Positions 39,465-53,575 of a stretch of 64,000 nt of DNA are shown here, in pieces. The position numbers were made by a program, and so were the translations under genes. Source of the DNA: Hyalangium gracile (lineage in GTDB: Bacteria; Myxococcota; Myxococcia; Myxococcales; Myxococcaceae). The first letter of the stretch is position 1. Each line of letters starts with the position of its first letter. The notes under the pieces were generated by a model. It worked only from the letters and a program-made list of their open reading frames with translations. It was not told where the DNA came from and did not search any database. Where the stretch lies: positions 124,001-188,000 of the forward strand of contig NZ_JAHXBG010000019.1 of the NCBI RefSeq assembly GCF_020103725.1, in the 5' to 3' direction.

Positions 39465-41102
<1,638 letters not shown>

Positions 41103-43486: not shown

Positions 43487-45337
43487 TCAGCTCGGGATTC
43501 GCACCACCACGGCGGACGGGCCCTCGAGCCGGATGACGCCATCGCGCAACGGGGGAAGCTCGACAGTGCCGCCAAAGCGGGGAGCCTCGCTCCACAGCAA
43601 CACCTTGGCCTGCCGGCCCTCGGGCAGCGCGTACTCCAGCGAGCCCTTCACGTTGACGAAGACGAGCAGCCGCTGCTCCACCGTCCTGCGCTCGAGCACG
43701 AGCGCGTCCGGGCCCACCACGCGCGCGTCATGGTTGCCTCGGCGGCGCGACCGCAGCTCGGGCTCGCTGGCGCGCAGTCGCAGCAGTTCCTGGTAGAGCG
43801 CGCGTACGCCCGCGTGCGGTGGGCGCTCGGCCTCGCTCCAGTCCAGGCGCGAGCGCTCGAAGGTCGCCACCGCCTGCGGATCCGGCACCGTATCTCCCGC
43901 GAAGCGGGTGAAGCCGGCGAACTCCTTGCGCCGGCCCTCGGTGACGAGCCGCCCCAGCTCCTCGTTGTGGTCGGTGAAGTAGAGGAAGGGCGTGCTCGCG
44001 TTCCACTCCTGCCCCATGAAGAGCAGCGGCGTGTACGGCGACAAGAGCAGCAGCGTGCTCATCGCCCGGAAGGCCGCTGGCGACACGTCATGGCCCAGCC
44101 GCTCTCCGTGCGCGCGGTTGCCCACCTGGTCATGGTTCTGGATGCAGTGCACGAAGCCGCGCGGCGACAGCCCGCTGGCGGAGGTGCCTCGGGCGTGGCC
44201 CAGGTTCTTCGACTCCTGGCCCTCGTAGAACCAGCCCTGGCGCAGCGTGCGCGCGATGTCCTCCGCGCTGCCCGTGTAGTCCTGGTAGTAGCCCTCGCTG
44301 TCGCCCGCGAAGGCGCGGCGCAGCTGGTGGTGGAAGTCGTCCGCCCAGACGCCGTCCAGCCCCATGCCTCCGTCGGAGGCGGGGCGCACCAGCCGGGCCT
44401 CGTTGCGCTCGTCCTCGGCGATGATGAGCACCTGGCGGTCCAGCGCGGCGGCGCGCGCCCGGGCGACGAGCTCCTCCAGCAGGTGCGGCGAGCCGTCATC
44501 CACGATGGCATGCGCCGCGTCCAGCCGCAGGCCGTCCGCGTGGTAGTCGCGGATCCACATCTCCACGTTGGAGAGCACCATCTCCCGCACGGGCGCCGAG
44601 TGCTTGCCGTCGTAGTTCACCGCATCGCCCCACGGGGTGTGGTGCCTGTCGGTGAAGTAGTGCGGCGAGTAGCAGCGCAGGTAGTTCCCGTCCGGCCCGA
44701 AGTGGTTGTAGACGGCGTCGATGAGCACGGACAGCCCCTGCGCGTGCGCGGCGTCGATGAGCCGGCGCAGGCCGGTGGGGCCGCCATAGGCGTGCAGGGG
44801 CGCGAAGAGGTCCACGCCGTCATAGCCCCAGTTGCGCGTGCCCGGGAAGCTGGCCAGGGGCATGAGCTCCAGGGTGTTGATGCCCAGCTCGCGCAGGCCC
44901 TTCAGCTTGGGGATGAGCGCCTCGAAGGTGCCCTCGGGCGTGGCGGTGCCCACGTGCACCTCGTAGATGACGAGCGACTCGGGGTCCGGGCCCCGCCAGC
45001 CCAGGTCCGTCCACTCGAAGTCCGGCACCACCACCTCGGAGGGGCCGTGCACGCCCATGGGCTGCGAGCGGGACCAGGGGTCCGGGAAGGGCCCCTCTCC
45101 ATCCACGCGCAGCTTGTAGCACACGCCCGCTCCGGCTCCCTCCAGCACGGCGCCGAAGCAGTCGCCCGGCTCGGGCGTCATGGGCAGCACCCGGCCCGGC
45201 TTGCCCTCGCCATCGTGCAGGACGACTTCGAGCCGTCGATGGCCCGGCGCCCAGACACGCCAGCGCACGCGATTGCCAGACTCCACCCAGGCGCCCAGTC
45301 GAGGCACCGCCACCCGAGATTCCGCCACTTGCTCCAT
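43487..45337 (-). CDS. treZ: Malto-oligosyltrehalose trehalohydrolase
   Basis: 616 residues from MEQVAESRVAV, or 8 more from the ATG at 45361. An N-terminal CBM48-like domain (RVRWRVWAPGHRRLEVVLH) precedes a GH13 barrel. The catalytic Asp is in GLRLDAAHAI, the acid Glu in LIIAEDERNEARL and the third Asp in IQNHDQVGNR. NWGYDGVDLFAP and WNASTPFLYFTDH are typical of TreZ rather than of branching enzymes. It releases trehalose from maltooligosyl-trehalose in the cytoplasm. Its partner TreY is not in the window. Confidence 0.93.
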   Translation of the reverse strand: MEQVAESRVAVPRLGAWVESGNRVRWRVWAPGHRRLEVVLHDGEGKPGRVLPMTPEPGDCFGAVLEGAGAGVCYKLRVDGEGPFPDPWSRSQPMGVHGPSEVVVPDFEWTDLGWRGPDPESLVIYEVHVGTATPEGTFEALIPKLKGLRELGINTLELMPLASFPGTRNWGYDGVDLFAPLHAYGGPTGLRRLIDAAHAQGLSVLIDAVYNHFGPDGNYLRCYSPHYFTDRHHTPWGDAVNYDGKHSAPVREMVLSNVEMWIRDYHADGLRLDAAHAIVDDGSPHLLEELVARARAAALDRQVLIIAEDERNEARLVRPASDGGMGLDGVWADDFHHQLRRAFAGDSEGYYQDYTGSAEDIARTLRQGWFYEGQESKNLGHARGTSASGLSPRGFVHCIQNHDQVGNRAHGERLGHDVSPAAFRAMSTLLLLSPYTPLLFMGQEWNASTPFLYFTDHNEELGRLVTEGRRKEFAGFTRFAGDTVPDPQAVATFERSRLDWSEAERPPHAGVRALYQELLRLRASEPELRSRRRGNHDARVVGPDALVLERRTVEQRLLVFVNVKGSLEYALPEGRQAKVLLWSEAPRFGGTVELPPLRDGVIRLEGPSAVVVRIPS

Positions 45338-45663
45338 ATCCCTTCGATTTAATGCGCCCATGTCCTACCGAGGAGCACCTCGGACGAGAGTCCCAAGTGG
45401 ATCCGCTCCCAGGTGTTCACTGCTGGCCCGCCGGACTGTCCGCTGCCTGCCTTCTATCCGCCCGCGGGGGCAACCCGGTGCAGGAGCCAGGGCAGCGTCA
45501 CCCACCGCGGCAGGGGCAGCTCCCGGTGCCATATCCGGCAGGGAGCAGCCCGGGGACCGGGCGCCCGCCGCGCCCCCGCCCCTGGTGCCAGGGAGGCATG
45601 GAGGCTCCGCCGCGCGCACGGACCGTCCTTACGGTGTGCGGGAGACGCCGGAGGCGGCACGCC

Positions 45664-48848: not shown

Positions 48849-51800
48849 TCAGTGGACGCGGCCGACGAGGGCCAGGAGCTGCGAGCCGTAGCGCTCGATG
48901 AGCTTGGGGCCCACGCCCTGGATGGCCATGAGCGCGTCATTGTCCTGGGGGCGCACGGCGGCGATGACACCGAGCACCCGGTCCGTGAGGATGCGGAAGG
49001 CGGGGACTCGGCGCCGCCGGGCCTCGGCGAGCCGCCAGGCCTTGAGCGCCTCCACCAGCGCGGGCGAGGGCTTCGGAGCCGGAGCGCCCCGTCCGCGCCG
49101 CACGCCGACGTCGGCCTCCTCGTCCCAGGGCTCGCCAGCGCCTGGCGCCTCCTCCCAGTCGGGAACCACCCTCAGCGAGCCCGGAGCCGCCGCGACGTTG
49201 GGCCGAGCCGAGGAGGCACGTGAGCCGCTCCACGAGCCGGCACCCGCCGCCGCACGGGCCGGGCGGGCCTCGGCGGCACGTCCACCCATGGGGCTCCGCT
49301 TCTCGGCGCGCCTCCCCTCCCCCTTCGAGCGGCGGAGGCGACGCTTCTTCGAGGCCTTGGCCTCGAGGGGCATCGGCAGCAGCACGAGATCGGGCTCGAT
49401 GACACGCGTGCGCTGGCCATCGGGGGTGAGCGTGAGCCGCTGGAAGGTGATGCGCTGCCCCTCCTTGTCGAAGGAGTCCTCGCTCAGCCGGGCGAGCCCC
49501 GCGCGCACCAGGCCTCCCACGAGCCGCTCGAACTCGCGGCGCGGCAGGGACTCGCCGAAGAGCTCGCGGTGCAGGCGACCCGTGGCCTGGCCATCGCGCT
49601 CGTGCAGCGCGTCCAGGATGCGCCCCAGGGCGTTGAGCTCTCCCTCGCCCGGCTCGGCGAAGCGCAGGGTGACGCAGCCCTCGGGCGCGCACACGTCGCA
49701 CAGCCCGCACGGCTTGCCCGAGTCCTGCACGTCACCGAAGTGCTCCACCAGGTGGCGCATGCGGCAGCCAGAGGACTCCGCGTACCGGCCCATCTGCTCC
49801 AGGTGGAGCATCTTGCGCTCGCGCTGCGCGGCATACGAAAGCCCCCAGCCCGGCTTGCTCCGGCGCACCATCTCGTCCGGAGTGACCTCCAGGCCGCCGT
49901 GGATCCACAGCTGCTCGAGCGCCTTGTCGAACACCTCCGGGTCCATGCGGATGCGCGCCTGCAGGGCCTCCTTGGGCTCCAGCTCGACGCGAGCTGCGCG
50001 GAAGAGCTGCTCGAGCACCGCGGGCTCCGGGTAGTCGCGCTGGTGGAAGAACTCGTGAGTGCGGCGGTCCACGTACGAGTGCAGGAGCACCGCGCGCGAG
50101 GGCTTGCCATCCCGTCCCGCGCGCCCCAGCTCCTGGTAGTAGCCCTCGAGGCTGGCCGGGAGCGCGGCGTGGAAGACGGTGCGCACGTCCGGCTTGTCGA
50201 TGCCCATGCCGAACGCCGTGGTGGCGACGATGACCTCCAGCCGGCCCTCCAGGAACGCGGCCTGGACGCGGTCACGGTCGGCGGGCTGCATGCCCGCGTG
50301 GTACACGGCGGCGGGGAAGTCCGAGCCCAGCAGGTCCGCCAGCTGCTCGGCGTGCTTGCGCGTGGAGGCGTAGACGATGGCTGGGCGGCGCGAGGGCTCG
50401 GACAGCACCTCGCGGATCGCCTCGCCGCGCTGGCCGGGGTTCAGCTCGCGCATCTCGATGGCGATGTTGGTGCGGCGGAAGCCGTGGATGAAGGTGCGAG
50501 CCGCCCCGCCCCGTACGCCCTTCAGCCCGAGCTGCTGGACGATGTCGCGCTGCACGTCGGGCGTCGCGGTGGCGGTGAGGGCCACCACGGGCGCCGGGCG
50601 CAGCATCGGCAGGCGCGAGCCGAGCAGCCGGTAGTCCGGGCGGAAGTCATGGCCCCACTGCGAGATGCAGTGCGCCTCGTCGATGGCGATGAGCGCCGGC
50701 GTGCGCCGGGCCAGCAGCTCCACGAAGCCGGGCACGCCGAGCCGCTCGGGAGCGATGAAGAGGAAGTCCAGGTGTCCCTCGAGATAGTCCGCGCACACCT
50801 GGCGCGAGGTGGCCCGGTCCCGACCCGAGTGGATGCGCTCCGCCGCGAACCCGAGCGACTGGAGCCTCGTCACCTGGTCCTCCATCAGCGCGATGAGCGG
50901 GCTCACCACCAGCGTCGTGCCCGCCCGGGCCAGGCCCGGCAGCTGGTAGCACAGCGACTTGCCAGCCCCCGTGGGCATCACCAGCAGCAGGTCCTCTCCG
51001 GCGGTGGCCGCCCGGCACACGTCCTCCTGGTAGGGACGGAAGTCCTCGAAGCCAAAGGCCTCCTTCAAGAGCCTCCGAAGCTCTCCAGGCGGAGTGGGCG
51101 TTCGTGGCGCACGGCGAGCCGCAGGAACCGCCGACGCGCTCGCGGCGCCCACCCGCGGACGGGCGGCAGCCACGGCTGAGGTGGACTCCGCCCTGGGCTT
51201 CGCGGCGCGGGGCTCATGCTCAGCCCTCGCAGCCACGGCAGGGGCCTCCATGGGCATGGGCCTCGGACGAGACTCCCGCCGTTCCTCCTCCACGGGCGCC
51301 GAGGGAGCCCCCCCACGAGGAGCCGGAGGCGCTCGGGGCGGCACGCTCGCCGGTCCCTTGCCCACCACCTCGATGACGTATGCCTCGATGCTCCGCAGGA
51401 AGTCCGAGAGGTCCCCCCGCCCGCGCTCGATGCGCTGCAGCCACGCCTCCCACTGCCCCGTCATGGCCGGCGTCTTCACGTCCGGGTGCACGGTCTGGAT
51501 GAGGCGGATGCCCTTCTCCGTGGCCTCCATCGACTTGCCGCGGCGCTGCAGATACTCGCGCTCCAGCAGCACCTCGATGATGGCGGCGCGCGTGGCGGGC
51601 GTCCCCAGCCCCGTCTCGCGCATCGCGTCCGCCAGCTCCTTCTCGTCCAGCGTCCGCCCCGCCGTCTCCATCGCCGTGAGCAGCGTGGCGTCCGTGAAGC
51701 GCGGCGGCGGCCGGGTGCGCTTCTTCACCGCCTCCACATCCTCCACGCGCTGGGGCTGCCCGCGCTGCAGCCCGGCAGGCAGATCCTGCGCGTCATCCTC

Positions 51801-53357
51801 CGGCTCCCGGCCCTCGCTCTCCTCCTTCTCCTTCTCGGCCTTGCTCGGACGCTCCTTCGGCGGCTTCGGCCCGCCCACGTCCAGCACCTTCCACCCGGGG
51901 CGCACCACCTGCGTGCCCGAGCTGTGGAAGCGATCCACCCGCTCCGGCCCTCCCCCCGCTCCGGGCGAGCTCACCGCGGTGATGACCGTGGTGACGGACC
52001 AGACGTGGTCCTCGTGCCAGGCCGCGAGCAGCCGGCGGCACACCAGCTCATAGATGCGCCGCTCGTCCGGCGACAGCCGCACCTCATCCGGAGACGTGGG
52101 CGTCGGCACGATGGCGTGGTGGTCCGTCACCTTCGCGTCATCCACGAAGCGCCGGCCCAGCGGCCGCTCGCCCGTGCCCGGTGCCAGCAGCGGCAGGTAC
52201 GCCCCGCGAATCGCCCGCACCACGTCCGGCAGGGTGGCCGCCACCTCCGTCGACAGGTGCCGGCTGGAGGTGCGCGGGTAGCTCAGCAGCTTGTGCTTCT
52301 CGTACAGCGCCTGCGCCAGCTCCAGCGTCCGCTGCGCGCTGTACCCATAGAGCCGGTTCGCGTGCCGCTGCAGCTCCGTCAAGTCGTAGAGCAGCGGGGG
52401 CGCCATCTTCTTCGTCTCGGACGTGAGCGACTCGATGGCCGCCCGCCCCGTCCGCACGCGCGCCATCACCTCGCCCGCCTCCACCCCATCCGCGTGCAGG
52501 CGCCGGGCCTCGCGCGCGCCCTCGGCCAGCTTCGCCCCCGTCTTCGGGTCCACCTCGCGGAACCACGTGCCCCGGTACCGAGCCCCCGCCGGCACCTCCG
52601 CCGCCTGGGGCAGGAAGGTGGCCACCACCTCCAGGTAGTCCTCGGGGACGAAGTCGCGGATGGCCAGCTCGCGCTCCACCACCATGGCCAGCGTGGGCGT
52701 CTGCACCCGCCCCACCGACAGCATCTCCCCGCCCCCCAGCGTGTACAGGCGCGACAGGTTCATCCCCACCAGCCAGTCCGCCCGGCTGCGCCCGCGCGCC
52801 GCGTCCGCCAGCGCGTCGTACGCCGCCCCCTCCTTGAGCTGCCGGAAGCCCTCGCGGATGGCGCTCTCCGTCAGCGACGACACCCACAGCCGCTTCACCG
52901 GCTTGCGGCACCCGGCCGCCTCATAGATGTACCGGAAGATGAGCTCGCCCTCGCGGCCCGCGTCCGTGGCGCACACCACCGCGCTCACCTCGGGCGAGTT
53001 CATCACCTCGCGCACCACCGAGAACTGCGAGCGCGTGTTCTCGGACACCACCAGCGGCCACTCGCGAGGCAGCATCGGCAGCTGCTCACGGCTCCAGCGC
53101 TTCCACTCGGCCCGCATCTCGTGCGGCTGCGCCAGCCCCACCAGGTGCCCGATGGCCCACGTCACCACGTAGCCGTTGCCCCGGAACCAGCCCTCCCCGC
53201 GCTGCGAGGCCCCCAGCACCCGGGCAATGTCCCGAGCCACCGCCGGCTTCTCCGCCACCACCGCGAGCACGGACGCACGGCCCCGCTGAGCCGTCTCGCG
53301 GCCCACCTCTCGGGTCCTCTCTTCTTCGCGTCCTGCACCCATCGCATCCCACCTCAT
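48849..53357 (-). CDS. Topoisomerase III-RecQ helicase fusion with HRDC domain
   Basis: 1502 residues in one open frame. Residues about 28-165 are Toprim (VVAEKPAVA, DAGREGELIF) and 166-660 the type IA topoisomerase core, with active-site Tyr360 in LLSYPRTSS and LGTPATRA near 585. A charged insertion lies at 500-550. After an Ala/Pro/Arg linker (670-755) comes RecQ: FRPYQEDV, Walker A MPTGAGKS (794-801), DEAH (893-896), QELGRAGRDG near 1080, zinc cysteines CGLCDVC (1217-1223), a winged-helix region and HRDC (about 1431-1498). Separate RecQ and Topo III act together to resolve recombination intermediates; here both activities are tethered. The topoisomerase C-terminal zinc ribbons are absent. 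Confidence 0.95.
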   Translation of the reverse strand: MRWDAMGAGREEERTREVGRETAQRGRASVLAVVAEKPAVARDIARVLGASQRGEGWFRGNGYVVTWAIGHLVGLAQPHEMRAEWKRWSREQLPMLPREWPLVVSENTRSQFSVVREVMNSPEVSAVVCATDAGREGELIFRYIYEAAGCRKPVKRLWVSSLTESAIREGFRQLKEGAAYDALADAARGRSRADWLVGMNLSRLYTLGGGEMLSVGRVQTPTLAMVVERELAIRDFVPEDYLEVVATFLPQAAEVPAGARYRGTWFREVDPKTGAKLAEGAREARRLHADGVEAGEVMARVRTGRAAIESLTSETKKMAPPLLYDLTELQRHANRLYGYSAQRTLELAQALYEKHKLLSYPRTSSRHLSTEVAATLPDVVRAIRGAYLPLLAPGTGERPLGRRFVDDAKVTDHHAIVPTPTSPDEVRLSPDERRIYELVCRRLLAAWHEDHVWSVTTVITAVSSPGAGGGPERVDRFHSSGTQVVRPGWKVLDVGGPKPPKERPSKAEKEKEESEGREPEDDAQDLPAGLQRGQPQRVEDVEAVKKRTRPPPRFTDATLLTAMETAGRTLDEKELADAMRETGLGTPATRAAIIEVLLEREYLQRRGKSMEATEKGIRLIQTVHPDVKTPAMTGQWEAWLQRIERGRGDLSDFLRSIEAYVIEVVGKGPASVPPRAPPAPRGGAPSAPVEEERRESRPRPMPMEAPAVAARAEHEPRAAKPRAESTSAVAAARPRVGAASASAVPAARRAPRTPTPPGELRRLLKEAFGFEDFRPYQEDVCRAATAGEDLLLVMPTGAGKSLCYQLPGLARAGTTLVVSPLIALMEDQVTRLQSLGFAAERIHSGRDRATSRQVCADYLEGHLDFLFIAPERLGVPGFVELLARRTPALIAIDEAHCISQWGHDFRPDYRLLGSRLPMLRPAPVVALTATATPDVQRDIVQQLGLKGVRGGAARTFIHGFRRTNIAIEMRELNPGQRGEAIREVLSEPSRRPAIVYASTRKHAEQLADLLGSDFPAAVYHAGMQPADRDRVQAAFLEGRLEVIVATTAFGMGIDKPDVRTVFHAALPASLEGYYQELGRAGRDGKPSRAVLLHSYVDRRTHEFFHQRDYPEPAVLEQLFRAARVELEPKEALQARIRMDPEVFDKALEQLWIHGGLEVTPDEMVRRSKPGWGLSYAAQRERKMLHLEQMGRYAESSGCRMRHLVEHFGDVQDSGKPCGLCDVCAPEGCVTLRFAEPGEGELNALGRILDALHERDGQATGRLHRELFGESLPRREFERLVGGLVRAGLARLSEDSFDKEGQRITFQRLTLTPDGQRTRVIEPDLVLLPMPLEAKASKKRRLRRSKGEGRRAEKRSPMGGRAAEARPARAAAGAGSWSGSRASSARPNVAAAPGSLRVVPDWEEAPGAGEPWDEEADVGVRRGRGAPAPKPSPALVEALKAWRLAEARRRRVPAFRILTDRVLGVIAAVRPQDNDALMAIQGVGPKLIERYGSQLLALVGRVH

Positions 53358-53575
53358 GCCTTCCCCTCCTACCTCATCCTCCCCACCCCGATGCGATCGG
53401 GCTCCCCGGACGAACCTCTTCCTTATCGTGCCCCACCGACATCGCGCCCCTCTCTGGGGTCCTACCCGTCACGGCTGCTCCCTGTGCCACCGGGGAGCCT
53501 ACCTCGCACCTTCGGTGAAGTTTCCACCTCTCTGATTGCCCGCTTCCGCCCCCCCGGCGCCGGCGCCTGACAAGC

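Follow-up and report, generated by a model that had tools for sequence, protein, structure and literature searches.

The 64,000-nucleotide stretch of Hyalangium gracile DNA analysed here (the window; contig NZ_JAHXBG010000019.1, positions 124,001–188,000) contains a gene whose product, judged from its sequence, is a topoisomerase III and a RecQ-type helicase in one frame, with both halves complete and their catalytic residues kept. We consider it probable that this is a natural and ancient single-polypeptide RecQ–topoisomerase III machine in which the two activities would be coupled. At least 66 distinct one-frame fused genes with the same order are present in the Myxococcota, the Acidobacteriota and one gammaproteobacterial order (that of Contendobacter), genes being counted as distinct where a 120-aa stretch of the helicase is non-identical, so that close species may be merged. 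The oddity of a single genome is ruled out by the loci and surveys in several groups, and a stop hidden by sequencing error, which the original prediction had allowed for, is excluded in practice because at least 65 other distinct genes are open in one frame.

Architecture of the fused protein

The gene lies on the minus strand and is one ATG-to-stop frame with zero internal stops; a scan for sigma-70 promoters found none. Its features are as follows.

48849–53357, minus strand: open reading frame for the topoisomerase III–RecQ–HRDC fusion (P0001), 1,502 aa, from the frame and profile searches
53365–53370, minus strand: Shine-Dalgarno-like AGGAGG just upstream of the ATG
52875–53261, minus strand: Toprim, residues 33–161, with Glu36, Asp132 and Glu136 (Pfam and alignment)
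51396–52820, minus strand: type IA topoisomerase core (Topoisom_bac), residues 180–654 (Pfam and alignment)
52278–52280, minus strand: active-site Tyr360 (SYPRT) (alignment)
51087–51347, minus strand: linker between the halves, about residues 671–757, ~85 aa, rich in Ala, Pro and Arg
50067–51077, minus strand: RecQ helicase core, residues 761–1097, with GAGKS at 797 and DEAH at 893
49860–50066, minus strand: insert predicted to be winged-helix-like, separating the helicase core from the zinc site, residues ~1098–1166 (model)
49689–49766, minus strand: RecQ zinc site, Cys1198, 1217, 1220 and 1223 (Pfam and alignment)
49428–49646, minus strand: predicted second winged helix, residues ~1238–1310, in place of the RQC domain of RecQ
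49074–49397, minus strand: second basic, low-confidence and probably disordered stretch, residues ~1321–1428
48864–49061, minus strand: HRDC, residues 1433–1498 (Pfam and model)

The Pfam matches to Toprim (33–161), Topoisom_bac (180–654), DEAD (774–936), Helicase_C (979–1084), RecQ_Zn_bind (1176–1223) and HRDC (1433–1498) all exceed their gathering cut-offs, and the helicase half contains a Walker A motif (GAGKS, 797–801) and a DEAH box (893–896). The topoisomerase half passes the TopB subfamily models NF005829 (652.2 bits, cut-off 597) and TIGR01056 (556.1 bits, cut-off 515.75), and Glu36, Asp132, Glu136, Tyr360 and Arg362 align with those of E. coli and Listeria TopB; the DPD of E. coli TopB is DAG in the fusion, as it also is in Listeria. 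The best sequence match of this half among solved structures is to DNA topoisomerase 3 (2o19; residues 33–454, E 1.4e-88). At the position that we take to be that of the E. coli TopB decatenation loop, and on which our assignment of the fusion's loop insert depends, there is an insert in all five aligned fused rows that is absent from Listeria TopB.

The helicase half passes the RecQ family model TIGR00614 (372 bits, cut-off 219.8), the zinc-binding model PF16124 is over its cut-off, and HRDC (PF00570) scores 65.9 bits. The RecQ equivalog model TIGR01389 is below its cut-off (465.1 versus 640.2 bits), and we therefore assign this half to the RecQ family and not to the strict RecQ equivalog; no RQC match is listed in the Pfam search of the fusion. 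Its best match among solved structures is the RecQ-type DNA helicase 1oyw (residues 761–1097, E 1.8e-86). These matches, together with the TopB models and the alignments, bear out the original reading of one frame carrying a full type IA topoisomerase, with Toprim and Tyr360, and a full RecQ helicase with DEAH, zinc cysteines and HRDC. An AlphaFold2 model of residues 740–1502 (26 relatives in the alignment; mean pLDDT 77, pTM 0.59) predicts the order helicase core, winged-helix-like insert, zinc site, second winged helix, a stretch with pLDDT below 50, and HRDC. Structural superposition pairs it with RecQ catalytic cores (best 4q48_B, Z 34.1 over 464 residues, rmsd 6.8; 1oyw, Z 29.6, rmsd 7.0), and the predicted winged helix at 1238–1310 falls within the range so superposed, at an rmsd of about 7. 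The fusion differs from E. coli RecQ by an additional insert ahead of the zinc site, although alignment suggests that the stand-alone RecQ of the same genome has a pre-zinc insert too, so the insert may not be specific to the fusion.

Of the 44 fused genes with a covered 3' end, 35 have a detected HRDC. The nine in which it is undetected are L021, L047 and seven further ones from the Contendobacter order (L160, L162 and L165–L169), although L171 of that same order has it; the HRDC-less proteins end about 245–250 aa past the helicase core.

The linker between the halves is fast evolving, long in many Myxococcaceae and probably disordered. Third-position GC is 0.94–0.96 in the domain stretches of the fusion but drops to 0.72 in one linker and 0.84 in the other, and the GC of the first linker by codon position (0.82, 0.79, 0.72) is higher at the second than at the third, unlike in the domains; composition alone being insufficient, we take the linker as coding because the frame is open in relatives. 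Compared with L017 of Hyalangium versicolor, the closest named locus of full length, it has an identity of 0.60 and a dN/dS of 0.25 (domains 0.91–0.95 and 0.06–0.20), and compared with Archangium (L014) a dN/dS of 0.46 (domains 0.18–0.36), the linker ratios being rough since its dS is high (1.2–1.7) and uncertain. Over the fused genes the linker ranges from 18 to 276 aa with a median of 70, and is 18–62 aa long in 33 of 66, the shortest, of 18 aa, being in L073. A model of the 1,200-aa short-linker homologue L018 (pLDDT 59, pTM 0.31) gave no usable interface.

Distribution and origin

Our first scan used six short peptide patterns against one genome per species, and is no census. It returned 38 loci, with topoisomerase and RecQ in one frame in 36 by blastp; of the other two, L045 stops at a contig border before RecQ, and L048 is a fusion by phmmer. 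The genome surveys measure frames from stop to stop, and RecQ in the same frame is verified only at loci whose sequence was extracted. How widely the domain order is kept in the Myxococcota had been raised as a check on the original prediction, and long TopB frames prove common there: a topoisomerase III match lies in a frame of at least 1,200 aa in 57 of 146 genomes, of which 28 are verified by locus in addition to the window's own, the others resting on frame length (some are backed by the same length in another search, and some are the genes of named loci). Within the window's family (f1) the count is 53 of 65. The twelve exceptions comprise nine genomes with no TopB-grade match, G032 with a 686-aa stand-alone TopB, G119 with a 527-aa frame, and G079, in which the fusion is probably split over two contigs; there, an 881-aa TopB frame and a 947-aa RecQ frame lie at G079:C170:749-2578 and G079:C169:7601-8605. 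In the same order outside this family, TopB-grade matches are confined to two genomes out of 32, G120 and G140 (both in long frames), and this rarity suggests that the function is dispensable there. The fusion is also present in Myxococcus (L041). A record titled Comamonas sp. KCTC 72670 (BNCN01000008.1, L038) has TopB match coordinates equal to those in G073, a member of the window's family, and its Comamonas label is probably wrong.

Elsewhere separate TopB is commoner, and the fusion, frequent in some groups, is in the minority in others. Using E ≤ 1e-90, a threshold that can drop cut genes in surveys where many genomes are drafts, TopB was found in 20 of 199 Acidobacteriota genomes, six of them fusions with RecQ verified in frame and 14 not; one acidobacterial locus (L107, G205:C21) has a 1,063-aa TopB frame from which RecQ is absent. 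At the same threshold 23 of 40 genomes of the Contendobacter order have TopB, in long or contig-cut fused frames in 20 (RecQ verified in 18 of these), and 43 of 369 genomes drawn from the class of Contendobacter have it. Five of the 43 have frames of at least 1,190 aa, three in the Contendobacter order (G149, G383 and G385) and two elsewhere, on frame length alone (G588 and G452); the remaining 38 have no frame of that length.

The genome containing the window spans 11.7 Mb and is rated 100% complete. A search at E ≤ 0.001 finds two type IA topoisomerases in it, the fusion and a TopA-like protein in an 853-aa frame. A search for stand-alone copies, proposed along with the original prediction, found a separate RecQ (690-aa frame, 435 bits) and no second TopB; a second TopB was likewise absent from 14 genomes tested from the 38-locus scan, and no second TopB-grade match was found in any genome with a long TopB frame in the Myxococcota, Acidobacteriota and Contendobacter-order surveys. 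The claim that fusion fixes the stoichiometry at 1:1 needs correcting here: with a second, separate RecQ gene in the genome, equal cellular amounts of the two enzymes cannot be assumed. Among 30 chosen genomes (27 with one-frame fusions, G079 and G154 with probable ones, and G205 with separate TopB and RecQ), the fused copy is the only RecQ at E ≤ 1e-60 in 20, whereas two to four matches occur in another nine; because many of the genomes are drafts, the lack of another RecQ or TopB is provisional.

Phylogenies of the two halves agree. In a tree of the topoisomerase half (52 rows, 632 columns), 36 fused sequences (35 loci and the window, with contig-cut L045 included and L114, L117, L120 and L121 left out) are split from 16 stand-alone TopB by one 100/100 branch, and in a tree of the helicase half (50 rows excluding L085, 339 columns) a 100/100 branch again separates 33 fused sequences from 17 stand-alone RecQ, both trees being unrooted with hand-picked rows, several of the stand-alone ones long branches, and with program warnings about long-branch joins. 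With the window protein, itself a fusion, as the query, bit scores leave a gap: they are at least 734 for complete fused and at most 466 for stand-alone TopB, and at least 469 and at most 310, respectively, for the RecQ core. Because the two trees agree and the bit-score gap fits them, the sequences fit a single ancient fusion followed by joint inheritance, probably with transfer of the fusion between phyla; repeated independent fusion is unsupported by either of these unrooted, sampled trees.

There is no sign of a mobile element or phage gene. A plasmid search returned, among its best 5,000 records, none in which one place covers 80% of the query, and viral contigs, scanned by sequence pattern, yielded no relative.

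Gene neighborhood and the DpdF annotation

The PADLOC model PDLC02865, labelled 'DpdF' and 1,499 positions long, matches residues 6–1500 of the fusion at 2,758 bits, and a DpdA is encoded in the same genome. Taken at face value the near full-length match would make the fusion DpdF, the helicase of the Dpd DNA-modification and defence system, but we regard this as almost certainly mistaken. PDLC02865 also matches all 28 sequences of the fusion-family alignment (A1), whereas the NCBI DpdF model NF041063 gives the fusion 206 bits against a cut-off of 550. The label misleads because the better DpdF homologues of this genome lie elsewhere: one on contig 2 (L005, G000:C2:251810-252865) scores 912.8 bits with the NCBI model, and a second on contig 15, at 464 bits and below cut-off, is ~9 kb from the DpdA (570 bits; the two contig 15 loci are L199, G000:C15:38004-39257, and L006, G000:C15:49304-50371). 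No Dpd match at E ≤ 1e-10 occurs among ten neighbors of the fusion, the DpdA being on another contig, and DpdA over cut-off is absent from 20 of 24 fusion genomes (with weak matches in three of those 20). With the NF041063 score, the better homologues, the neighbors and the missing DpdA all against it, we reject this identity. With PDLC02865, genes that are probably housekeeping would be annotated as defence, and the label is no guide to function.

The nearest neighbors of the fusion encode a phospholipase-D-type protein, a metallopeptidase and an epimerase, with one unassigned protein and an aminotransferase beyond. Matches of window proteins to other PADLOC models are generic: the phospholipase-D-type neighbor to DrmC (56.5 bits at best), an alpha-amylase-like protein (43487–45361) to GlgB (C3a214, 72.1 bits), and a protein kinase (39465–41102) to PD-T4-6 (243 bits). 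In a crude open-frame comparison of 16 loci and the window, the shared neighbor frames that were recognised fall in Myxococcaceae and Archangiaceae loci.

Proposed function and its alternatives

The closest parallels to the fusion are the eukaryotic Sgs1–Top3–Rmi1 and BLM–TOP3A–RMI1 complexes, in which the same two enzyme types are present and a RecQ-type helicase is physically joined to a topoisomerase III, here from one frame; the fusion differs in being covalent and bacterial, and its topoisomerase carries an insert of its own where the decatenation loop would be. Engineered yeast Top3–Sgs1 fusions were reportedly made by Bennett and Wang (2001), and express the same idea, but these are artificial whereas the fusion described here is natural and old. 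Reverse gyrase also has an SF2 helicase and a type IA topoisomerase in one chain, but the fusion uses the topoisomerase III and RecQ families and the domain order of reverse gyrase is the opposite; the reverse gyrase model TIGR01054 (rgy) scores 90.1 against a cut-off of 471.7, which rules out this identity and agrees with the earlier view that the likeness is one of logic only. In yeast an N-terminal piece of Sgs1 (1–250) binds Top3 (PMC3905885), which would place the topoisomerase N-terminal of the helicase in both designs. Among the matches listed by a full-text literature search, in which subscription papers are thinly covered, no title or abstract concerns a natural TopB–RecQ fusion.

In Listeria (L177, NZ_LR134400.1) recQ and topB are adjacent on the same strand, 23 bases apart, but they are separate genes and in the opposite order, recQ then topB; the record is called plasmid 3, yet it carries guaB and other chromosomal-looking genes. 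The RecQ and TopB of E. coli are homologous to the two halves of the fusion but are encoded by separate genes, and a 2020 review (PMC7140829) describes experimental evidence for a RecQ–topoisomerase III 'toposome' as lacking, with no physical interaction observed, while noting that RecQ stimulates topoisomerase III in vitro. A 2026 paper pairs topoisomerase III with RecG and not RecQ (PMC13244152), the direction in which recent E. coli genetics points. The original statement that RecQ and topoisomerase III meet in most organisms thus needs correcting, since these sources leave the E. coli pairing unsupported. In M. xanthus, MXAN_1950, which is called RecQ and is possibly but not necessarily the fusion, is higher after 10 h of mitomycin (PMC12288472).

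We propose that the RecQ half would translocate along and unwind a branched intermediate, such as converging Holliday junctions, late replication intermediates or D-loops, to yield DNA that is single-stranded and hemicatenated. The topoisomerase half, tethered to it, would then cut one strand with Tyr360, pass the other and reseal, so that the duplexes would come apart with neither nucleases nor crossovers involved. The branch may be held by the winged helices and HRDC while the flexible linker lets the topoisomerase reach DNA freshly opened by the helicase, and one chain would thereby do the job of the Sgs1–Top3 or BLM–TOP3A complex. We infer that the fusion may dissolve double Holliday junctions. 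The fullest form of this proposal is a self-contained bacterial dissolvase that does the work of BLM–TOP3A–RMI1 in one chain, was fused once in ancient times, was carried into several phyla, and is the only RecQ and the only topoisomerase III in many Acidobacteriota and Competibacter-like bacteria; we put this forward tentatively, as a possibility about which we are nearly evenly divided.

The choice of substrate is where this proposal meets its strongest competitor, that the fusion acts mainly at replication, in removing precatenanes or separating converging forks, with RecQ merely opening single-stranded DNA for the topoisomerase. HRDC is thought to favor double Holliday junctions, and its lack of detection in 9 of 44 fused genes is in keeping with a replicative role, but it is kept in the other 35, and no feature of the sequence tells the two substrates apart. 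One paper reportedly treats converging forks together with RecQ and topoisomerase III, and we count it on the side of replication. On balance we find a mainly replicative role rather unlikely, although PMC7140829 has E. coli topoisomerase III acting in replication, most likely on precatenanes.

The remaining alternatives concern whether the two halves work together at all. Fusion is selection for linkage and not proof of a shared substrate, and two ordinary enzymes with unrelated substrates might have been joined by chance or for co-expression; the long and fast-evolving linkers of many Myxococcaceae and the lack of a predicted interface could be read in this way. We consider this improbable, however, as linkers are only 18–62 aa in 33 of 66 genes, the halves have stayed together and intact over three groups, no second TopB-grade match is found in long-frame genomes, and the fused RecQ is the sole strong match in 20 of 30. 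It is less probable still, and very much so, that the working proteins are separate, through cutting of the chain or production of RecQ from an internal start as well: in-frame start codons at residues 703, 708, 729 and 764 are each preceded by a weak Shine-Dalgarno-like match and the linker is probably disordered, but the 18-aa linker of L073 leaves little room for either.

Returning to a coupled RecQ–topoisomerase III machine, the pairing of these enzymes in bacteria is disputed, and the fusion, found also in laboratory-tractable Myxococcus, offers a single protein in which to study coupled unwinding and strand passage. That a natural fusion has remained whole through long evolution speaks independently for a functional connection between RecQ and topoisomerase III in bacteria. 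If the fusion is indeed a dissolvase, then a RecQ–topoisomerase III partnership would exist in bacteria, contrary to the current view from E. coli.
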